64,000 bases of DNA, from the NCBI GenBank assembly GCA_013373205.1, contig JABXIG010000020.1, positions 1 to 64,000 on the forward strand, read 5' to 3'. Shown piece after piece: positions 2,498 to 51,229 of the stretch. Below the pieces are notes generated by a model. That model ran no database searches. It was not told where the DNA came from and saw only the letters and a list, made by a program, of their open reading frames with translations. Positions within the stretch are counted from its first letter, which is position 1. The number at the start of each line of letters is the position of its first letter. Origin of the DNA: Methylocystaceae bacterium (GTDB lineage: Bacteria; Pseudomonadota; Alphaproteobacteria; Rhodospirillales; Terasakiellaceae). The translations under genes and the position numbers were made by a program.

Positions 2498-3055
2498 ATG
2501 ACTGGTATTCGTATGTCCACAGCCTTATGGAATGGCAGGCACGTCAAAGCATCCAACATTACAAACAGGCAAGATGGATATTGCTGTGACGGTTGTGGCA
2601 CATCGGTATCCTTCGTAAATGAACATGTTGTTCGCAAGGATGATCCGGAACTTGAAAGAACAGTCCCTGCGTTCTTTAGGCTTAAGCGAGGAGTGTTCCA
2701 CCAAACAGGTTGTAAGTATACCCCGTTTGGGCAGGTAGACCAGTTAGTTAAGAAGGCAAACGCCGTCGAAGATGGGGGTGAAAACCCATTTGTACAGCAG
2801 GCCCCTAATGGCCCCATTGAATTTCGCTTGAACATTGCGACTGATGCAAAGCAAGGGCTGTATGATCCGAAAGACGGGAAGGAAGCAGGAAAGAAGTTCG
2901 CGGAACGAGTAGCTCGTGTTTGGAGTGGTGATACGCTTTCCAACTATTGTCGTTCTGCAACGGGGTTACGGTATCAGAACCTAAACATTAACCTCCATCA
3001 TGCAGCGCAGCTATGCGAAGTTGAAAACCCGGACGATCCAAATGAACGAGACTGA
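2498..3055 (+). CDS. hypothetical protein, CoiA-like N-terminal zinc/cysteine motif
   Basis: YCCDGCGTSVSFV...FFRLKRGVFHQTGC pattern; ORF length. Confidence 0.45.
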   Translation: MTGIRMSTALWNGRHVKASNITNRQDGYCCDGCGTSVSFVNEHVVRKDDPELERTVPAFFRLKRGVFHQTGCKYTPFGQVDQLVKKANAVEDGGENPFVQQAPNGPIEFRLNIATDAKQGLYDPKDGKEAGKKFAERVARVWSGDTLSNYCRSATGLRYQNLNINLHHAAQLCEVENPDDPNERD

Positions 3056-4298
3056 ACAGTACTGCATCTACACCGACAAGCCCGTAGCACCTGAGAACGG
3101 TAACATGGACCACATCATTCCCCTCTCTTTGGGTGGAGCAAATGAATTCGTGGTCTGGTCTGATTGCGCTTACAACTCCAGACTGGGCAGTAAAGTCGAT
3201 GCTAAGATGTTGCAGGACATCGCCTTGCCTTTTGCGCTTCGCAATGCAGGTGTAAAGGGCCACAGTAAGAAACCAATAATCCCTCAATGGAAAAAAGTCG
3301 TTATGGAAGATCGCCCCATGCAGGTGACTTTCGGCCTTGATGAGATCAAAGCGTGGGATGCAAAAAGCCATCGGACCCTGCCGCAAGAGGAACTTAAAGG
3401 TAAGCCATTTGAAGCGACCTTCAAATTAGACACGGATATGAACTATCGCTTCATCGCCAAGGTATGCCTTGCGGGGGGCTACTTCCTATATGGTGACACC
3501 TTTAAAGAGTTAAGTGAATGCCAGACCCTTCGTCAATTGATGGAGTTCGACAGAAAGACAAGTACGCCAGACGATTATAAAGCATCTACAACACGTTTCT
3601 GTGACCGCTTCCATCCTGATGCGAAGGAAGGCGGGAACGCGTACTTTGAACGTGTTTTATGTGAAACTGTTGGACGCTCCATCCTCATCAGTGAACCTCA
3701 TCAAAAAGGTATTGCAATGCATTTGGGGCTAACAGAGGGGTTCTGGTTCATCGTAGTGACTGAAAGGAACGAAGATGAGACAAAACCAAAAACCTCAAAA
3801 ATTGAAGCGGACAAAACGGTGCGCCCCAACCAACTCTGGCAAACAGATTTTACGTATCTGAAAGTCATTGGCTGGGGCTGGTTCTATCTCTCAACAATTC
3901 TGGATGATTATTCCCGCTATATCGTAGCCTGGAAGCTGTGCACCGGTATGAAAGCAGAGGATGTTACCGCAACACTAGAATTGGCTTTGGAAGCCTCGGG
4001 CTGCGATCAGGTTGATGTTGTTCATAAACCGAGATTGCTCAGCGACAACGGGTCATCTTACATCAGCGGTGATCTGGCAGACTGGTTGGAAGATCAAGGA
4101 ATGAGCCATACGCGCGGAGCTCCCAACCATCCTCAAACTCAGGGTAAGATTGAACGCTGGCACCAGACATTGAAGAACCGCATCCTGTTGGAAAACTACT
4201 ATTTGCCAGGCGACCTGGAAAACCAGATCAACGCCTTTGTCGATCATTATAACAATGAACGTTATCATGAAAGTCTGGTGCTTCAATATCACCCGTGA
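3042..4298 (+). CDS. HNH endonuclease domain fused in frame to an IS3-family transposase (DDE) remnant
   Basis: YCIYTDKPVAPENGNMDHIIPLSLGG (HNH) at the N-terminus; NQLWQTDFTYLKVIGWGWFYLSTILDDYSRYIVAW...SDNGSSYIS...HPQTQGKIERWHQTLKNRIL (IS3 OrfB) at the C-terminus. Confidence 0.65.
   Translation: MNETEQYCIYTDKPVAPENGNMDHIIPLSLGGANEFVVWSDCAYNSRLGSKVDAKMLQDIALPFALRNAGVKGHSKKPIIPQWKKVVMEDRPMQVTFGLDEIKAWDAKSHRTLPQEELKGKPFEATFKLDTDMNYRFIAKVCLAGGYFLYGDTFKELSECQTLRQLMEFDRKTSTPDDYKASTTRFCDRFHPDAKEGGNAYFERVLCETVGRSILISEPHQKGIAMHLGLTEGFWFIVVTERNEDETKPKTSKIEADKTVRPNQLWQTDFTYLKVIGWGWFYLSTILDDYSRYIVAWKLCTGMKAEDVTATLELALEASGCDQVDVVHKPRLLSDNGSSYISGDLADWLEDQGMSHTRGAPNHPQTQGKIERWHQTLKNRILLENYYLPGDLENQINAFVDHYNNERYHESLVLQYHP
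3800..4285 (+). mobile_element. IS3-family transposase OrfB fragment, truncated at both ends
   Basis: rve/DDE core motifs present; no OrfA, no N-terminal OrfB segment, C-terminus ends abruptly after YHESL. Confidence 0.75.
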
Positions 4299-4346: not shown

Positions 4347-5258
4347 TCATTCCATATCATCACAATAAACTTTAAACCGATTGCGTCCTTCATTTTTAGC
4401 GACATAAAGAGCTTTATCTGCACACCTGATGAGTTCCACCGTATTATCGGCATTTTCTGGGAAATGAGATATGCCAATGCTTGCCCCGATCTGAATCTCA
4501 CACCCCATTATGAGAAATGTTTTTTTAAGCTGGTTTATGTATTTTTGAGCAATTTGATTAACAGTTTCGTTTTCTGTTACACCACTCAAAATTATTGCAA
4601 ATTCATCCCCGCCTAGCCTTGCCACTTGATCTACTTCACGAACGCGTCTCGTTAAAAGACCAGCAACATGTTGCAATAACTGGTCCCCAATTGGGTGACC
4701 ATAACAATCATTTACAGCTTTAAATCTATCCAAATCTATTATTAAAAGAGACATGCCATGATCATAACGTCGAGCCAGCTTGATTGCCCGGTCAAGTCCC
4801 GTGATAAAACTATTCCTGTTTGAAAGTCCCGTCAGTGGGTCGGTCATTGCCAGTCTCAGTATTTCATCATCTTTCTTTTTACGTTCTGTAATGTCTTCAA
4901 ACGCGAGTAGAATTTTTAAATCGCTTTCTTGCTGAGCAATAACTGTTCGAGCGTTTAGCAAAAATACTTTATCGCCAATGTCTGAAAAATGATGCTCAAC
5001 AAGAAACGCCTCAATTGTCGTCCCTTTAGTCAGTACTTCATCAAGAAGCCTTTTCAATTTAGCAATATCCCATTCACCCTCTCCCACATTGAAAAGAAGC
5101 TGGTTTTCTACATCAGCTTTGCTGAGACCAAAAGAATGGCAAAAATTCTTACTGGCTTTGATCACATGAAAATGTCGATCCAAAACCAAAAAAGGTTCCC
5201 TGATTGTTTCTAAAATGCACTCAATCAAGTCTTGTTGATTGTTACCCTCATCAGACAC
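4347..5258 (-). CDS. PAS domain diguanylate cyclase (GGDEF)
   Basis: DPLTGLSNR, RLGGDEFAII, ADKALYVAKNEGRNR; PAS-like N-terminus. Confidence 0.92.
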   Translation of the reverse strand: MSDEGNNQQDLIECILETIREPFLVLDRHFHVIKASKNFCHSFGLSKADVENQLLFNVGEGEWDIAKLKRLLDEVLTKGTTIEAFLVEHHFSDIGDKVFLLNARTVIAQQESDLKILLAFEDITERKKKDDEILRLAMTDPLTGLSNRNSFITGLDRAIKLARRYDHGMSLLIIDLDRFKAVNDCYGHPIGDQLLQHVAGLLTRRVREVDQVARLGGDEFAIILSGVTENETVNQIAQKYINQLKKTFLIMGCEIQIGASIGISHFPENADNTVELIRCADKALYVAKNEGRNRFKVYCDDME

Positions 5259-5515: not shown

Positions 5516-5818
5516 ATGACTATTCGTACAAACTCTAAATTCGTCATTTTCAAACATCCCTTTAAAATTGGTACTTTAGCTGAAATCCAACCAGCTGGTT
5601 CTTATAAGGTCGATACAGATGAGGAACTGATCGAAGGACTGAGTTTCATTGCTTACAAGAGAGTTCTGACAGTTATTCACTTACACAGCAAAAATAAGGT
5701 CAAGTCACTTACCCATGCATTAACCATCACAGCAAAAGAGCTTAAAGAAGCCCTCCAAAATGACCGGCTCGCCAGTGCTAATATTCTGGAAGACTTGCAC
5801 ATTGATTATAAGTTTTGA
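5516..5818 (+). CDS. conserved small hypothetical protein
   Basis: ORF with aggagg RBS upstream of ATG; first gene of a tightly spaced operon. Confidence 0.65.
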   Translation: MTIRTNSKFVIFKHPFKIGTLAEIQPAGSYKVDTDEELIEGLSFIAYKRVLTVIHLHSKNKVKSLTHALTITAKELKEALQNDRLASANILEDLHIDYKF

Positions 5819-5823
5819 GGATA

Positions 5824-6021
5824 ATGATGTCCTACAAAAAAACGATAAAGCATTCTGCTAAAAATGATACCCCCAAAAAATTCGACACCTTAGATGATGT
5901 CGAAGAAGAAAGCTCTGACAAAAATGAATTGAGTATTTATGGACTAGCCGCTCAATTAAAAAACATCATCACTCAATACAGGATGGATCGAGCAAAACGA
6001 AAACATGAAAGCAAAAAATGA
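5824..6021 (+). CDS. small hypothetical protein
   Basis: ORF between 5818 and 6018 with ATGA overlap to the next gene. Confidence 0.5.
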   Translation: MMSYKKTIKHSAKNDTPKKFDTLDDVEEESSDKNELSIYGLAAQLKNIITQYRMDRAKRKHESKK

Positions 6022-6689
6022 ACAATCATTCTCAATCAAGATTATTGCGGAACTTAACAGTTATACTTTTCGCCCTTACCTTGATCTGGCCTTATCCAAC
6101 GATTGCTGAAACGATCCCCAAAAACGCTCATGCAGAGAAATATGGCTCTGGTTGGAAGTGTGATAAAGGTTATATGAAAACAGAGAGCAAGTGCCTGAAA
6201 ATTCAAACGCCTAAACATGGTTTTTTAACAGGCCGATCCTATAGTGAAGGCTGGAACTGTCTACGTGGATATAAACGAGACAATAAAAAATGTATTGCAA
6301 TAAAAATCCCAAAGAACGCCTTTTTAAATGATGCTGGATATGAATGGGAATGCGAGCGGGGGTATAAAGAGCGAAGTGGAACGTGTTCGAAAATTAATAT
6401 CCCTAAAAATGCTTATCTGTCTTCAGATACATATGGAAAAGGCTGGGAATGTGTTCGCGGTTTTCAAGCAACAAATGAAGCCTGCATCAAAATAGAAGTC
6501 CCTGAAAACGCTTATCTTGACGACAGTGGCTATAAGGTTGGTTGGAAATGTCTGCGAGGTTTCAAAGCGAACCAGGGAAAATGTAACCCCGTCATACTTC
6601 CTGCAAACGCCCATCTTGATTATTCAGGTAACGATTGGGAGTGCGATGCCTCATTCACCAAATCAGCCAACAGGTGCCTACGCCCATAA
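6018..6689 (+). CDS. secreted protein with six W-x-C...C repeats
   Basis: N-terminal signal-like segment (LTVILFALTLIWPYPTIA) followed by about six units of the form (I/V)PKNAxL...GWxCxRGFxxxxxxCxK. Confidence 0.75.
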   Translation: MNNHSQSRLLRNLTVILFALTLIWPYPTIAETIPKNAHAEKYGSGWKCDKGYMKTESKCLKIQTPKHGFLTGRSYSEGWNCLRGYKRDNKKCIAIKIPKNAFLNDAGYEWECERGYKERSGTCSKINIPKNAYLSSDTYGKGWECVRGFQATNEACIKIEVPENAYLDDSGYKVGWKCLRGFKANQGKCNPVILPANAHLDYSGNDWECDASFTKSANRCLRP

Positions 6690-6772
6690 CTTATTAAACT
6701 CCATTCATGAGGGACGACTACTGCTTGTTGGAAGTCCCTTTCCACTTATTCATTCGATGAAATGACCAATTA

Positions 6773-7825
6773 ATGAAAACCAACCATGCAATTACAAAAA
6801 TAAACAAACGCATTGAAATTGTCTCAACAGATACCAGAACGATGAAAGAAACTGGTTTTGGGTCGTTAAAGACCTGTCGAATAATAAGGGACATCCTACA
6901 ACAGCATTACACGGATGTTAGTTTTCGAGAAGCACACAACAAAGGGGACTTGGAAGATATTGTAAAGCGTCGACCTGATCTTGTTGTTCTTTGTGTCAAA
7001 TACATCTGTGATCCAAACAAAATCAACCTTGCTGCTTTTTTTGAAAAGCAAAATATTGCCCATACAGGCTCAGATGAAGTGACACTTGAATATGATTCTA
7101 ATAAAGGCAAAGCCAAAACTTTACTATTGGAACATGGCATTGCCACAGCAAAATTCTTTTTAACACAGCCAAAGGCCGTAAAGAATGAGCTGCAACTCCC
7201 ACTGCCACTCCCATTATTTGTTAAGCCCCTTAATGCTGCCAACGGGAATGGCGTGGATGAAAACTCAATCGTTCATGACTGGCTTAGCTATACTCAGAAA
7301 GTTGAAGAAATTTTCAATCAATATGGTGAGAGTTCTATCGTCGAAGAAATTTTGCCCGGAAGAGAATTCACAGTCGCTGTACTCGAAGACCTTAGCACAA
7401 ATACCCGGTACGCCTACCCTGTAGAGATTATTGCACACAAAAACTCTAAAGGAGATCGTGTGCTAGGTTCGTTCGAAAAATCAAGTAACCAAGAACGTGT
7501 CTTGGCTGTTGAAAGTGCAGTTTCGGACAGTGTATCCGAGCTGGCAAAGAAAGTATTTTCAATTCTTAGAGTAAAAGATTTCGGCCGTATAGATATCAAA
7601 ATGGACGCAAAAGGCATTCCTCATTTTATTGAGGCTAACCTTGTCCCCGGGCTCACGCCTGAAACAAGCTACTTCCCGCGTTCCTGTAACATGGAGAAGG
7701 CGATGCCTTACGATACGTTGGTTTTAAATATTATTGATTTCGCCCTACAACGTAACAGTCAACACACCTGCCGAGAACAGAGAAGAGAAAGCCTTCCATT
7801 TGCCGATTTAAAACCAGCGATTTAG
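6773..7825 (+). CDS. D-alanine-D-alanine ligase-like ATP-grasp protein
   Basis: LFVKPLNAANGNGVDE, EILPGREFTVAVLED, GRIDIKMDAKGIPHFIEANLVPGLTPETSYFP. Confidence 0.85.
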   Translation: MKTNHAITKINKRIEIVSTDTRTMKETGFGSLKTCRIIRDILQQHYTDVSFREAHNKGDLEDIVKRRPDLVVLCVKYICDPNKINLAAFFEKQNIAHTGSDEVTLEYDSNKGKAKTLLLEHGIATAKFFLTQPKAVKNELQLPLPLPLFVKPLNAANGNGVDENSIVHDWLSYTQKVEEIFNQYGESSIVEEILPGREFTVAVLEDLSTNTRYAYPVEIIAHKNSKGDRVLGSFEKSSNQERVLAVESAVSDSVSELAKKVFSILRVKDFGRIDIKMDAKGIPHFIEANLVPGLTPETSYFPRSCNMEKAMPYDTLVLNIIDFALQRNSQHTCREQRRESLPFADLKPAI

Positions 7826-8011: not shown

Positions 8012-8221
8012 ATGGCTATTGGAAATGTAAAATGGTTTAACCCGACAAAAGGTTTTGGCTTTATTCAACCTGAAAATGGTGGAGATGATGCTTTTGTTCA
8101 TATCTCGGCTGTTGAACAAGCTGGACTTTCTGGATTAGAGGACGGACAAAAAGTCGAATACGAACTGGAAACAGGACGTAACGGCAAGACATCTGCAATT
8201 AATTTGTCAGTTCTTTCTTAA
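8012..8221 (+). CDS. cspA: cold shock protein, CspA family
   Basis: MAIGNVKWFNPTKGFGFIQPENGGDDAFVHISAVE. Confidence 0.92.
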   Translation: MAIGNVKWFNPTKGFGFIQPENGGDDAFVHISAVEQAGLSGLEDGQKVEYELETGRNGKTSAINLSVLS

Positions 8222-8265: not shown

Positions 8266-8909
8266 AAACTCTCACTTGGCAGGTTTCATTATGCAAAAAT
8301 CGATAAATTCTAGATCAGAAGAAAAAGCGGTTTAGAAAAAAATAAGTAATAATATGCCTCAAGGACAAGATTTCCTAGTCAGGTACGTCTGCATCATTTT
8401 GTAACGGTTGAATGTCACGGCACTTCACCAAGTTTCATTATCGAACGAACGACAAATCAGAAAATGATCTCCCATGCGCAGGACCTTATTGTGGGCGCTT
8501 ACGGGACAAAAACAAAAATCAAACAAGTATATTTATTAATACCCTACAAGCCCTTGCTTCGAAGGCTTAAATCAAATTCGACGCGATATCTTACAACGAG
8601 TGTTTGATGCCCCGATTGTAAAGCTAAGAAAATAGGTATTTCATCAGGCACTCAGTCTTTATTTCGTGTCGTTTAGCCATTCCTCAGAATTTTGTAGAAT
8701 GAGGTAGGTTGACGAACAACGAATTTAGGCACAAATCATCCCTTCAGTATTCATTCGAAATCGCGCAATTCCGCTGAAATTTCAGCGTGACCATATTTCG
8801 AAACTGAAAAATCTCACTAAATAACCCGCTTGCGCTACGGGATGTTAAAAAATGCCGGAGTTCATCCCTGTTTAGATGCAGGATGCAATGCACGGCCGAA
8901 AGAACCTTT

Positions 8910-10145
8910 ATGCAATCTATTAATTTTAAGGCGCTTGGCCTCTCTGAGCCACTGTTGCTTGCGCTAAAAGAACAACAATTTGAAACGCCTACGCCCATTC
9001 AAGAACAATCAATTCCTTCTCTTTTAAATAAATGTGACTTATTAGGCATCGCACAGACCGGAACGGGCAAGACGGCAGCTTTCAGCCTACCCATATTACA
9101 TGAACTCGGCGAAGATTGGGAGCCACCTGCGCCCAAGTTTCCCTTAAGCATCATTCTTGCCCCTACCCGAGAACTCGCCATTCAAATTGGTGAATCCATT
9201 GAAATTTTCGGGCGGCATCTCCCTGTTCGACATACTGTTATTTTTGGTGGTGTGAGCCAAAAACACCAGGTTAAGGCTCTTCATCGCGGTGTTGATATTG
9301 TTGTTGCAACACCTGGGCGTCTTTTGGACCTTATGAATCAAGGGCATATTTCACTAAAACACATTTGGCATTTTGTATTGGACGAAGCCGACCGCATGCT
9401 GGATATGGGCTTCATCCATGATGTTAAAAAAATCATTGCTGTGCTGCCCAAAGAACGCCAAACCCTGTTCTTTTCCGCAACCATGCCCAAATCAGTTTCC
9501 GGACTTGCCAACAGCATACTGAAGGACCCTATCCGTATTGAGATAACACCACAATCTACACCGGTTGAACGCATTGACCAAAGTGTATACTACGTGTCAG
9601 CTGCGGATAAAAATGTATTGTTGACTGGTATCTTAGGCGATAAGTCCATAAAAAAATCCATCGTCTTTACGCGAACAAAACACCGTGCCAACCGTGTAGC
9701 ACAACAGCTTCAAAAGGCGGGTATCACCTCCGCAGCTATTCATGGCAATAAATCGCAAGGGGCACGGCAAAAAGCACTTAAAAGCTTCAGTAGCGGTGAA
9801 GTCCGGGTTTTAGTAGCTACCGACATAGCTGCACGAGGCATTGACATCGACAATGTCAGCCATGTCATTAACTTCGAGCTTCCCAATATCGCCGAAGATT
9901 ACGTCCACCGTATCGGTCGAACAGCAAGAGCTGGTGCATCCGGTGCTGCAATTTCAATGTGTGACCCAGGTGAACAAACTTACCTTCGTGATATTGAAAA
10001 ACTGATGCAGCACCAACTTGATGTTGTAGGTGGTCAACCGTCTCAAGACGAGTCCAAACCGACTAAACGCGATCCACGACAATCCTCGAAGCGCCCAGCA
10101 AAATCGAAACGATACCGAGGTAAACCGAAAGTACGTGCAGCGTAA
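8910..10145 (+). CDS. rhlE: DEAD-box RNA helicase, RhlE-like
   Basis: AQTGTGKT, PTRELAIQI, DEADRMLD, SATMP, RGIDIDNVSHVIN, HRIGRTARAG. Confidence 0.92.
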   Translation: MQSINFKALGLSEPLLLALKEQQFETPTPIQEQSIPSLLNKCDLLGIAQTGTGKTAAFSLPILHELGEDWEPPAPKFPLSIILAPTRELAIQIGESIEIFGRHLPVRHTVIFGGVSQKHQVKALHRGVDIVVATPGRLLDLMNQGHISLKHIWHFVLDEADRMLDMGFIHDVKKIIAVLPKERQTLFFSATMPKSVSGLANSILKDPIRIEITPQSTPVERIDQSVYYVSAADKNVLLTGILGDKSIKKSIVFTRTKHRANRVAQQLQKAGITSAAIHGNKSQGARQKALKSFSSGEVRVLVATDIAARGIDIDNVSHVINFELPNIAEDYVHRIGRTARAGASGAAISMCDPGEQTYLRDIEKLMQHQLDVVGGQPSQDESKPTKRDPRQSSKRPAKSKRYRGKPKVRAA

Positions 10146-16990: not shown

Positions 16991-18160
16991 TTATTTCATA
17001 CTCGGAAGCGTATCTTTTACAAAATTCACAAATCCATCGTCATAAGTATAAACTTTAGGCAACTTGTGCATCCCGACGAAAGGAAAGACTTGTTGCACCT
17101 TATCCTGCAAGTGCTTCTGCGCCCCTTTTTTATTTGAAATGAAATCAATATAAAAGATTTCTTTCTGCAAACCATCTTCTGCAGTTTCACAGAATTGTTT
17201 CAAGATATAGCGAATTAACGCATCTTCTTCTGGCATACTATAGCCAACAATAACTAATGCTTGGCTATCTCTCAAAACGCGAATAGCTTTTGAGAAAATT
17301 TCTTTAAAATATTGATCCGTATAATCTTGCTCTCTTGAAGGCAGTATCAACTTAGGAGGCATGCATTTGTTTTTGGCCGTAACCTTACGGTAATCAAACT
17401 CATAACTTTTCCCCTTCTTTATGATTTCAAATCCACCATTCAATTTAATTAAATTTGAAACTAGGTAATGGTCATGAATTTTAGTATCTAATTGAAAACC
17501 TTTGATTTTTTTAGGTGTAATCCCCCGATAAGTATAATTAAACAATGTATCATCAGGGCCGATACAGCTATCTAAAATATACTCAATCAAAAAATCATAG
17601 TTGGTAGAAATGAAATTCAAACGAATACCTTCAGCAACACCTTCTGCTCCAGTGCTATATCTACTGAATTTATTAAAAAAACCAATTATATCTTTTTGAT
17701 CACCACTCAATGGTCCATTTTGATCAAATTTATATGAATTTTTATTTAAAAAAATCTCAGGAGTAATCGTGTTGAAATACTTTTTAATGAGAAGAGATAT
17801 TTCTTCTTTTAGAATACGAACATTTTCACGATCAATATATCGAGACTGAATGTCAGGGTATTTTTCATTCATATCCAAAAAATAGATGATCGACTTAATC
17901 TCATCTAGTGACAAATCCGCGTGCGGATCATAACCTAGCTGTGCCCGCAAAGCATTTAAATCTTCATTTCCACAAAGATTTTTCTCTGGAATATTAAAGA
18001 GCTCCACGCCTGTAGGATAACTAAGGTCCCAACTTTTTGAAAAACCAGCACCACACCAAAACGTCATATTTTTCAATTGACGAAGTTTTTCAGCACCATT
18101 CCAAGCCAAATTCTTCGAAAGATATGATGTAAAAGCTTTAACGCAGTCCTTATTAGACAT
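16991..18160 (-). CDS. SIR2-family protein (putative NAD+-processing defence-type)
   Basis: FWCGAGFSKSWDLSYPTG, FISTNYDFLIEYIL, ALVIVGYSMPEEDALIRYIL. Confidence 0.8.
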   Translation of the reverse strand: MSNKDCVKAFTSYLSKNLAWNGAEKLRQLKNMTFWCGAGFSKSWDLSYPTGVELFNIPEKNLCGNEDLNALRAQLGYDPHADLSLDEIKSIIYFLDMNEKYPDIQSRYIDRENVRILKEEISLLIKKYFNTITPEIFLNKNSYKFDQNGPLSGDQKDIIGFFNKFSRYSTGAEGVAEGIRLNFISTNYDFLIEYILDSCIGPDDTLFNYTYRGITPKKIKGFQLDTKIHDHYLVSNLIKLNGGFEIIKKGKSYEFDYRKVTAKNKCMPPKLILPSREQDYTDQYFKEIFSKAIRVLRDSQALVIVGYSMPEEDALIRYILKQFCETAEDGLQKEIFYIDFISNKKGAQKHLQDKVQQVFPFVGMHKLPKVYTYDDGFVNFVKDTLPSMK

Positions 18161-49385: not shown

Positions 49386-50318
49386 GTGACGTCATCCATG
49401 GACTTTAACAACGGATTATTGGATCGCCTGCCCAACGTGCGCGGGCGTCTCAGTGCCAATGCACCTTTGGATAAGGTGACATGGTTCCGTGTTGGCGGTC
49501 CGGCTGAAGTCATGTTCCGCCCTGAAGACCTACAGGATTTAGCCGATTTCATAAAAGCCAAACCAAAAGACGTGCCCCTGACCTTCTTGGGCGTGGGATC
49601 AAACCTGTTGGTGCGTGATGGCGGCATCCCCGGTGTGGTTGTTCGTTTGGGGCGTAACTTTGCCAAAATTGACGTTGACGAAACCCGCATCATTGCTGGC
49701 GCAGGTGCCCTTGATGGCAATGTCGCCAAGGTCGCGTTAGATAATTCTTTAGCAGGTTTAGAATTTCTTAGTGGTATCCCAGGCACAATAGGTGGTGCCT
49801 TGCGAATGAACGCAGGCGCATATGGTCGGGAGATGAAAGACGTGTTGATAGAGACAGAAGCCATTTCACCTTTAGGGGAGGTCAAAACCTTAAGCCTAGC
49901 AGATATGGGCTATAGTTATCGCCATAGTGATCTGGCCGAAGATTGGGTCTTACTGTCTGCGACCATGGAAGGTCAGCCCGGCAAGGCAGAAGAAATTCGG
50001 GCAGAAATGCAAAAAATTCAGGATGCCCGCGGGGAAAGCCAACCCATTCGTTCACGCACCGGCGGGTCCACCTTTGCAAATCCACCCGGCCATAAAGCAT
50101 GGCAGCTAATCGATCAGGCCGGATGTCGCGGTTTAAAACGTGGTGGGGCACAAGTGTCCGAACAACATTGTAATTTCCTGATCAATACCGGAGATGCCAG
50201 CGCAGCAGATCTGGAAGGATTGGGCGAAGAGGTTAAAAAACGTGTGTTTGACACATCCGGCGTAGAACTTCGTTGGGAGATCAAACGCATTGGATTGGAA
50301 AAAGGGGAGAGATCATGA
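49386..50318 (+). CDS. murB: UDP-N-acetylenolpyruvoylglucosamine reductase MurB
   Basis: TWFRVGGPAEVMFRP, GVGSNLLVRDGG, SGIPGTIGGALRMNAGAYG, GSTFANPPGHKAWQLID. Confidence 0.96.
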   Translation: MTSSMDFNNGLLDRLPNVRGRLSANAPLDKVTWFRVGGPAEVMFRPEDLQDLADFIKAKPKDVPLTFLGVGSNLLVRDGGIPGVVVRLGRNFAKIDVDETRIIAGAGALDGNVAKVALDNSLAGLEFLSGIPGTIGGALRMNAGAYGREMKDVLIETEAISPLGEVKTLSLADMGYSYRHSDLAEDWVLLSATMEGQPGKAEEIRAEMQKIQDARGESQPIRSRTGGSTFANPPGHKAWQLIDQAGCRGLKRGGAQVSEQHCNFLINTGDASAADLEGLGEEVKKRVFDTSGVELRWEIKRIGLEKGERS

Positions 50319-51229
50319 GCACACATGTAGCCGTATTAATGGGCGGATGGTCGTCTGAACGCGAAGTCTCTCTTGTATCCGGGGCAGCTTGCGCAAAAGC
50401 GTTACAACAGGCAGGCTATAGCGTCACCACCGTAGACATCCAGCGCGATATGGGCACGCTTTTGACCCGTCTATACCCAAAACCGGATGTGATCTTTAAC
50501 GCACTTCATGGCCCTTACGGTGAAGATGGTTGTATGCAAGGGTTCTTGAACATCATCAATATTCCTTACACCCATTCCGGTGTCATGGCCTCAGCCATTG
50601 CCATGGATAAACCCATGGCAAAACGCCTGTTTGAACAGGTCGGCATTCCATGCGCCAAACATATGATGGCCAAACGCGATGAGGTGCTGGCAGGCGATGT
50701 TATGCCACGCCCTTATGTGATCAAGCCCACCAATGAAGGCTCAAGCGTTGGGGTTAAGATTGTTTTAGAAGGCGATAATGAAGGTCCCTTCACCCATGAT
50801 GACTGGCCTTATGGCGAAGACGTCATGGTCGAACAGTTTATTCCGGGGCGTGAATTAACCGTTGCTGTCATGGGGGATCGCGGGGCCTTGGGCGTGACCG
50901 AGATTTGCACCAAGCATAAATTTTATGACTATGACGCTAAATATGTCGATGGTGGATCCTACCATGTGGTGCCCGCAGATGTTCCTGCTGACATTACTGC
51001 AAAAGTTAAAAAAATGGCGGAATTAGCCCATGAAACATTGGGATGCCGTGGCGTATCGCGCGCTGATTTCCGTTATGACGATGAAAAGGGCGAGCTTTAC
51101 ATTCTGGAAGTCAACACCCAGCCCGGCATGACGCCAACCTCACTGGTGCCGGAACAGGCCGCAGCGGCTGATATTTCTTTCCCCAAACTGGTGGCCTGGA
51201 TGGTGGAGGAAGCTCAATGCGACAATTAA
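50315..51229 (+). CDS. ddl: D-alanine--D-alanine ligase
   Basis: VAVLMGGWSSEREVSL, ALHGPYGEDGCMQGFL, VKPTNEGSSVGV, EVNTQPGMTPTSLVPEQA. Confidence 0.96.
   Translation: MSTHVAVLMGGWSSEREVSLVSGAACAKALQQAGYSVTTVDIQRDMGTLLTRLYPKPDVIFNALHGPYGEDGCMQGFLNIINIPYTHSGVMASAIAMDKPMAKRLFEQVGIPCAKHMMAKRDEVLAGDVMPRPYVIKPTNEGSSVGVKIVLEGDNEGPFTHDDWPYGEDVMVEQFIPGRELTVAVMGDRGALGVTEICTKHKFYDYDAKYVDGGSYHVVPADVPADITAKVKKMAELAHETLGCRGVSRADFRYDDEKGELYILEVNTQPGMTPTSLVPEQAAAADISFPKLVAWMVEEAQCDN

Follow-up and report, generated by a model that had tools for sequence, protein, structure and literature searches.

A conserved and apparently undescribed alphaproteobacterial gene module, gA-gB-gC, is accompanied in some lineages by an optional amide ligase, which in the DNA studied here is gD and which by residue tests is not a D-alanine-D-alanine ligase (Ddl). 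The window, 64,000 nucleotides in length, lies on contig C69 of a 4.09-Mb Terasakiella genome and carries gA, gB, gC and gD in the same direction (Table 1). With moderate confidence, we interpret the locus as an uncharacterised envelope module whose optional and exchangeable amide ligase would yield an aminoacyl unit or a short peptide that is not D-Ala-D-Ala. Literature searches brought up no account of gA, gB or gC.

Table 1. Genes of the locus and their flanks in the window.
Feature	Position	Strand	Basis or remark
PAS-GGDEF protein, divergent from gA	4347..5258	-	Pfam PAS_4 and GGDEF
gA, conserved protein of 100 aa, no Pfam family	5516..5818	+	ORF; good AGGAGG ribosome site
gB, 64-aa charged protein with a conserved C-terminal GLAAxLKNxI...R segment	5827..6021	+	
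gC, 223 aa, predicted exported, six PxNAxL..GWxCxRGF..C units, 12 Cys	6018..6689	+	ORF
gD, 350 aa, ATP-grasp ligase with a Ddl fold, from a subfamily of its own	6773..7825	+	
csp, CspA-type cold-shock protein	8012..8221	+	Lies 187 nt past gD; likewise placed in genome G037
RhlE-type DEAD-box RNA helicase	8883..10145	+	NCBIfam RhlE models

A sequence-only reading of the window had described four tightly packed genes. Its calls of gA and of a six-unit, exported-type Cys/Trp protein (gC) agree with ours, and the gB stop and gC start do overlap in an ATGA junction, whereas gD is set off from gC by 83 nt. The gB product, previously taken as ~66 aa from a TTG overlapping gA (TTG 5815), most likely begins at ATG 5827, 8 nt past the gA stop, because a GAGG ribosome site lies at the gA stop and its counterpart in another Terasakiella genome (G037) has 65 aa and begins MSYKK. 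Moreover, the row of genes does not end with gD at 7825, as had been supposed, and continues with csp and then with the RhlE-type helicase, which may also be part of the neighbourhood. The PAS-GGDEF gene is a possible regulator, and its belonging to the module is uncertain. Rfam searches of the cluster returned nothing credible, with one below-threshold chance match, and an RNA element at the locus was therefore rejected.

To define how the genes travel, six sampled Terasakiella genomes were compared. In G037, gA, gB, gC, gD and csp occur in the same order as in the window, with identities of ~89%, ~78%, ~80% and ~86% for gA, gB, gC and gD, respectively; the arrangement is therefore more than chance. 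Two further genomes of the genus (G067 and G079) possess gA and gC and lack gD, which excludes an obligate four-gene operon. Terasakiella pusilla (G054) carries, where a contig ends, a shortened gD that adjoins a fragment of an IS-type transposase, and it shows no gA or gC match, while none of gA, gC and gD was found in G016. Based on these patterns, gA-gB-gC and gD constitute two units that are together only sometimes. Across the wider set, in most genomes gA(-gB)-gC has no gD with it, most gC loci adjoin no ligase, and most gD relatives lie away from gA, gB and gC, so the four-gene unit proposed earlier is not retained.

The related proposal that gD has partners of its own fared better, although the four genes are no obligate unit. 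In G895, the only genome available from its family, a gD relative of the same clade as the window's overlaps by 8 nt a seven-repeat gC homologue that follows it on the same strand, and no gA or gB was found beside this pair. The gene order is opposite in the two lineages, gC preceding gD in Terasakiella and gD preceding gC in G895. Furthermore, in the gC tree, the G895 protein is separate from Terasakiella gC, and the starred branches force two changes. The opposite orders and the tree thus indicate that the pairing was not one simple inheritance along with gC, and the adjacency of gC to gD in an unrelated family, in the opposite order, argues that gD has a real partner. As a rough inference, chance adjacency of gD and gC in one genome would have a probability of <0.1%, given two neighbour places among ~3,000 genes. 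In addition, the presence of the two genes is associated among 297 genomes of the order: gC occurs in 4 of the 6 genomes with gD versus 33 of the 291 without it (P = 0.003; P = 0.006 with Terasakiella counted once). The sequence-only reading would have fallen had these genes never co-occurred elsewhere or had gD been an ordinary Ddl by sequence, and neither was found.

The accidental presence of gD beside gC was considered, with gD acting as an independent metabolic ligase that forms, for example, an opine- or phosphonate-type peptide. The varied contexts of gD relatives favour this explanation. In G1022, outside the class, the relative is adjoined by an AlaDH/PNT-family dehydrogenase that looks opine-type (carboxyethylornithine synthase-like; L094 7711-8889). 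PEP mutase and neighbouring phosphonate-biosynthesis genes lie within ~10 kb of the relatives in T. pusilla (L022 5331-6635) and G094 (L024 696-2372), and a viral contig carries a further relative. However, adjacency to gC is seen twice, in different families and in opposite orders, and the window's genome contains no PEP mutase above the cut-off, for which reason a phosphonopeptide route for gD was rejected. We consider an accidental neighbour doubtful.

Among named genomes, a scan with the gD pattern matched only T. pusilla (83% identity), and no gD match was obtained in plasmids and phages. gD as mobile-element cargo was rejected accordingly, though one viral contig does carry a relative (L095 1890-2942) together with T4-type ssDNA-binding and DNA-end-protector genes. 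This viral protein groups with that of G319 (99/98) and is possibly encoded by a phage-borne metabolic gene.

The gA-gB-gC module itself was examined in ~46-50 gC neighbourhoods. gC is present in 11 of 289 genomes of the class (Alphaproteobacteria) and in 37 of 297 genomes of the order. Homologues of gA, for which no Pfam or PDB relative was identified, occur in 16 of 190 alphaproteobacteria and are near gC in 15 loci. A gB profile recovered copies directly after gA in L187, L170, L171 and L173, none of which had been used in building it, and gB is also present in L019, L021 and L195. In three genomes of genus g58 (L170, L173 and L175), a gene for a trypsin-like protease is placed between gA and gC. 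The gA loci without gC gave no Ddl-like or MurE-like ligase, only two transglutaminase and two desaturase matches, and gA as the carrier of the ligase link was rejected on this ground. In G079, a circularly permuted ATP-grasp/alpha-E protein and a transglutaminase-DUF2126 putative amidoligase are encoded divergently beside gA-gB-gC (L021 696-6449).

A different ligase occupies the same type of locus in other genomes. In L181, L187 and L195, gC is adjoined by a shortened MurE-like ligase, which lies directly before gC in L181 and gives the order gA-gB-ligase-gC in L187 and L195. Similar to MurE, this protein scores above the murE cut-off (TIGR01085) and has the Mur_ligase_M and C domains as well as the DNPR motif, which we take to denote meso-DAP specificity. 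In contrast to MurE, it is without the N-terminal UDP-MurNAc domain, Mur_ligase_M beginning at residue 36-64 with no match before it, and it stands between gA-gB and gC. As both gD and the MurE-like ligase lie beside gC, two unrelated ligases of peptidoglycan-precursor type are found in one operon type. The proximity of Mur ligases to gC approaches significance by neighbour position only, and the density test against random regions gave P 0.31. If the two unrelated cell-wall ligases serve one exported repeat protein, peptidoglycan-type chemistry would have a branch apart from murein, one whose link to cold adaptation could be tested.

To characterise gC, its sequence and predicted structure were compared with known folds. 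The protein has a signal-like N-terminal segment, and its model (pLDDT 90, pTM 0.60) consists of a leading helix and four short strands per unit. gC matches EGF_MSP1_1 (PF12946, MSP1 EGF domain 1) at 9.1e-10, above the curated cut-off, and its sequence profiles lean weakly to MSP1 EGF domains. No PDB fold was matched at E <0.001, the nearest being EGF and TNF-receptor modules. Thus, gC shares with EGF-like domains the tandem PxNA ... WxC ... GY ... C pattern, but each unit carries two Cys rather than the six of an EGF-like domain with its three disulfides. In genus g54 (L201, L202, L203 and L204), repeats of the gC type also form the N-terminal part of a protein that is probably membrane-bound and has CxxC motifs at its C-terminus. 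The g54 operon contains DnaJ-like, ThiF/E1, ubiquitin-like, E2-like (L201 3621-4271) and JAB genes, and in L201, L202 and L203 there is a 4-nt overlap between JAB and the gC-like gene.

The presence of such repeats in a membrane protein of a ubiquitin-like E1/E2/JAB operon bears on another explanation, in which the module's own proteins are the substrate: gD, or the MurE-like ligase in its place, would attach an amino acid or a peptide to gB or to not yet exported gC. It would also suit gB, which is small and charged, belongs to the same operon and keeps its C-terminal segment. However, gA-gB-gC is common without a ligase, and the gD-gC pair of G895 has no gA or gB alongside. Furthermore, no conserved acceptor residue was identified, and to our knowledge Ddl-fold ligases act on small molecules, which we count against this explanation; it appears unlikely. 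The gD neighbourhood resembles the loci of ATP-grasp amidoligases and graspetides in that a ligase stands beside small proteins and a repeat-bearing neighbour. Unlike in graspetide loci, gD is Ddl-like, and gC is a predicted exported protein of 223 aa; among the models searched, gD was matched only by Ddl-type and general ATP-grasp models and by none of the graspetide-type (RimK/GshB-like) ligase models.

To understand the relationship of gD to Ddl, fold, domain and residue comparisons were performed. The Pfam domain Dala_Dala_lig_C (PF07478) is recognised in gD at E 4.5e-22 (79 bits versus a cut-off of 24), and its closest solved structures are Ddl enzymes. The gD model (pLDDT 86.6) matches Ddl folds at ~20% identity, with Pseudomonas DdlA as the top match (E 9e-22). 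Eight residues (K151, E191, E198, K236, R272, D274, E287 and N289) are invariant across 16 gD relatives and, in an alignment to the Ddl of the same genome, map onto the presumed ligands of ATP and Mg. By its fold and these ligands, gD belongs to the ATP-grasp superfamily with a Ddl fold. The motifs VKPLNAANGNGV and EANLVPGLT, reported earlier as diverged, are both present as given. gD differs from Ddl (TIGR01205, PF07478) on the side of the substrate: E15, the HGxxGEDG loop, S150, Y216 and S281 (E. coli Ddl numbering), presumably the D-Ala-binding features of Ddl, are absent or unconserved when gD is aligned with the Ddl of the same genome and across its 16 relatives. Because the ATP and Mg ligands are kept while the D-Ala features are lost, gD is probably an active amide ligase with a substrate other than a D-Ala pair. 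A role for gD as a further, ordinary D-alanine-D-alanine (or D-Ala-D-Ser/D-Lac) ligase is highly improbable despite its fold match and Pfam domain, since the NCBIfam Ddl/Van models all score far under their cut-offs (best 94.5 bits versus 243), the D-Ala recognition residues are missing, and the canonical Ddl is encoded, as the sequence-only reading had noted, in the dcw cluster (ORF 50273-51229), the sole other gD match in the genome. The earlier view of gD as an extra, diverged Ddl-like ligase is thereby upheld at the sequence level.

The gD subfamily is separated by a score gap, its members scoring >245 bits and other proteins <135, and consists of two supported clades (99/98). Clade 1, that of the window, comprises proteins of Terasakiella, G895, G536 and two genomes outside the class, whereas clade 2 comprises those of other alphaproteobacteria and the viral contig. 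Homologues of Ddl are readily named D-alanine-D-alanine ligase; for this subfamily, the name is, residue by residue, probably wrong, and the partner genes supply a way to seek the real substrate.

The activity, substrate, localisation and physiology that we infer for the envelope module from the observed layout, recurrence, residue conservation, pair of ligases and csp enrichment would be as follows. gA-gB-gC is a conserved alphaproteobacterial module around the predicted exported, EGF-like repeat protein gC, and in some lineages the module would have taken up an ATP-dependent amide ligase of peptidoglycan-precursor type. Here, this ligase is gD, which may bind ATP and Mg as Ddl does, phosphorylate a carboxylate and couple it to an amine, with no formation of D-Ala-D-Ala; in other genomes, the MurE-like ligase without the UDP-MurNAc domain occupies the same operon. 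In the cytosol, the ligase would make a short peptide or add an amino acid to a small acceptor other than UDP-MurNAc. Its product would then work alongside exported gC in the envelope, where the probable setting is a response to cold or stress. In its most complete form, the proposal is tentative: within a hitherto undescribed system of the envelope, Ddl- and MurE-like ligases recruited from peptidoglycan-precursor synthesis would replace one another in serving an exported EGF-like repeat protein and two small proteins, and their product would be a peptide or conjugate outside murein, made probably in response to cold.

To assess the neighbourhood of gC, 46 gC loci (473 kb) were compared with 40 control stretches of 20 kb (800 kb) from the same genome set, at positions chosen blind to content. 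Genes for csp were near gC in 10 of 46 loci versus 1 of 40 random regions (P = 0.0004; 0.005 with one count per genus), and this enrichment underlies the probable link of the module to cold. In 5 of the 46 loci, from 3 genera only, gC had a PAS domain like that of the window nearby, against none of the 40 random regions (P ~0.05). DEAD-box helicases, found near gC also in L128, L130, L132 and L136, were commoner near gC, as were fatty acid desaturases, transglutaminase-like proteins, 2OG oxygenases and PAS proteins (P 0.02-0.07 genus-collapsed, with about ten families tried). After collapsing by genus, these helicase, desaturase, transglutaminase, oxygenase and PAS links are weak leads. Four genomes encode a PKHD-type 2OG-Fe(II) oxygenase near gD or gC (L022 9461-10060, L019 1784-2383, L135 2897-3460 and L182 2657-3259); the random regions and the window gave none.

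An anti-phage defence role of gA-gD was rejected, as none of the four was matched by PADLOC models. Elsewhere in the window, an rve integrase-core protein with an N-terminal HNH-like stretch lies upstream of the cluster (3000-4298), possibly as a mobile-element remnant, and a 389-aa protein on the reverse strand (16991-18160) matches SIR2 models of the anti-phage defence library.
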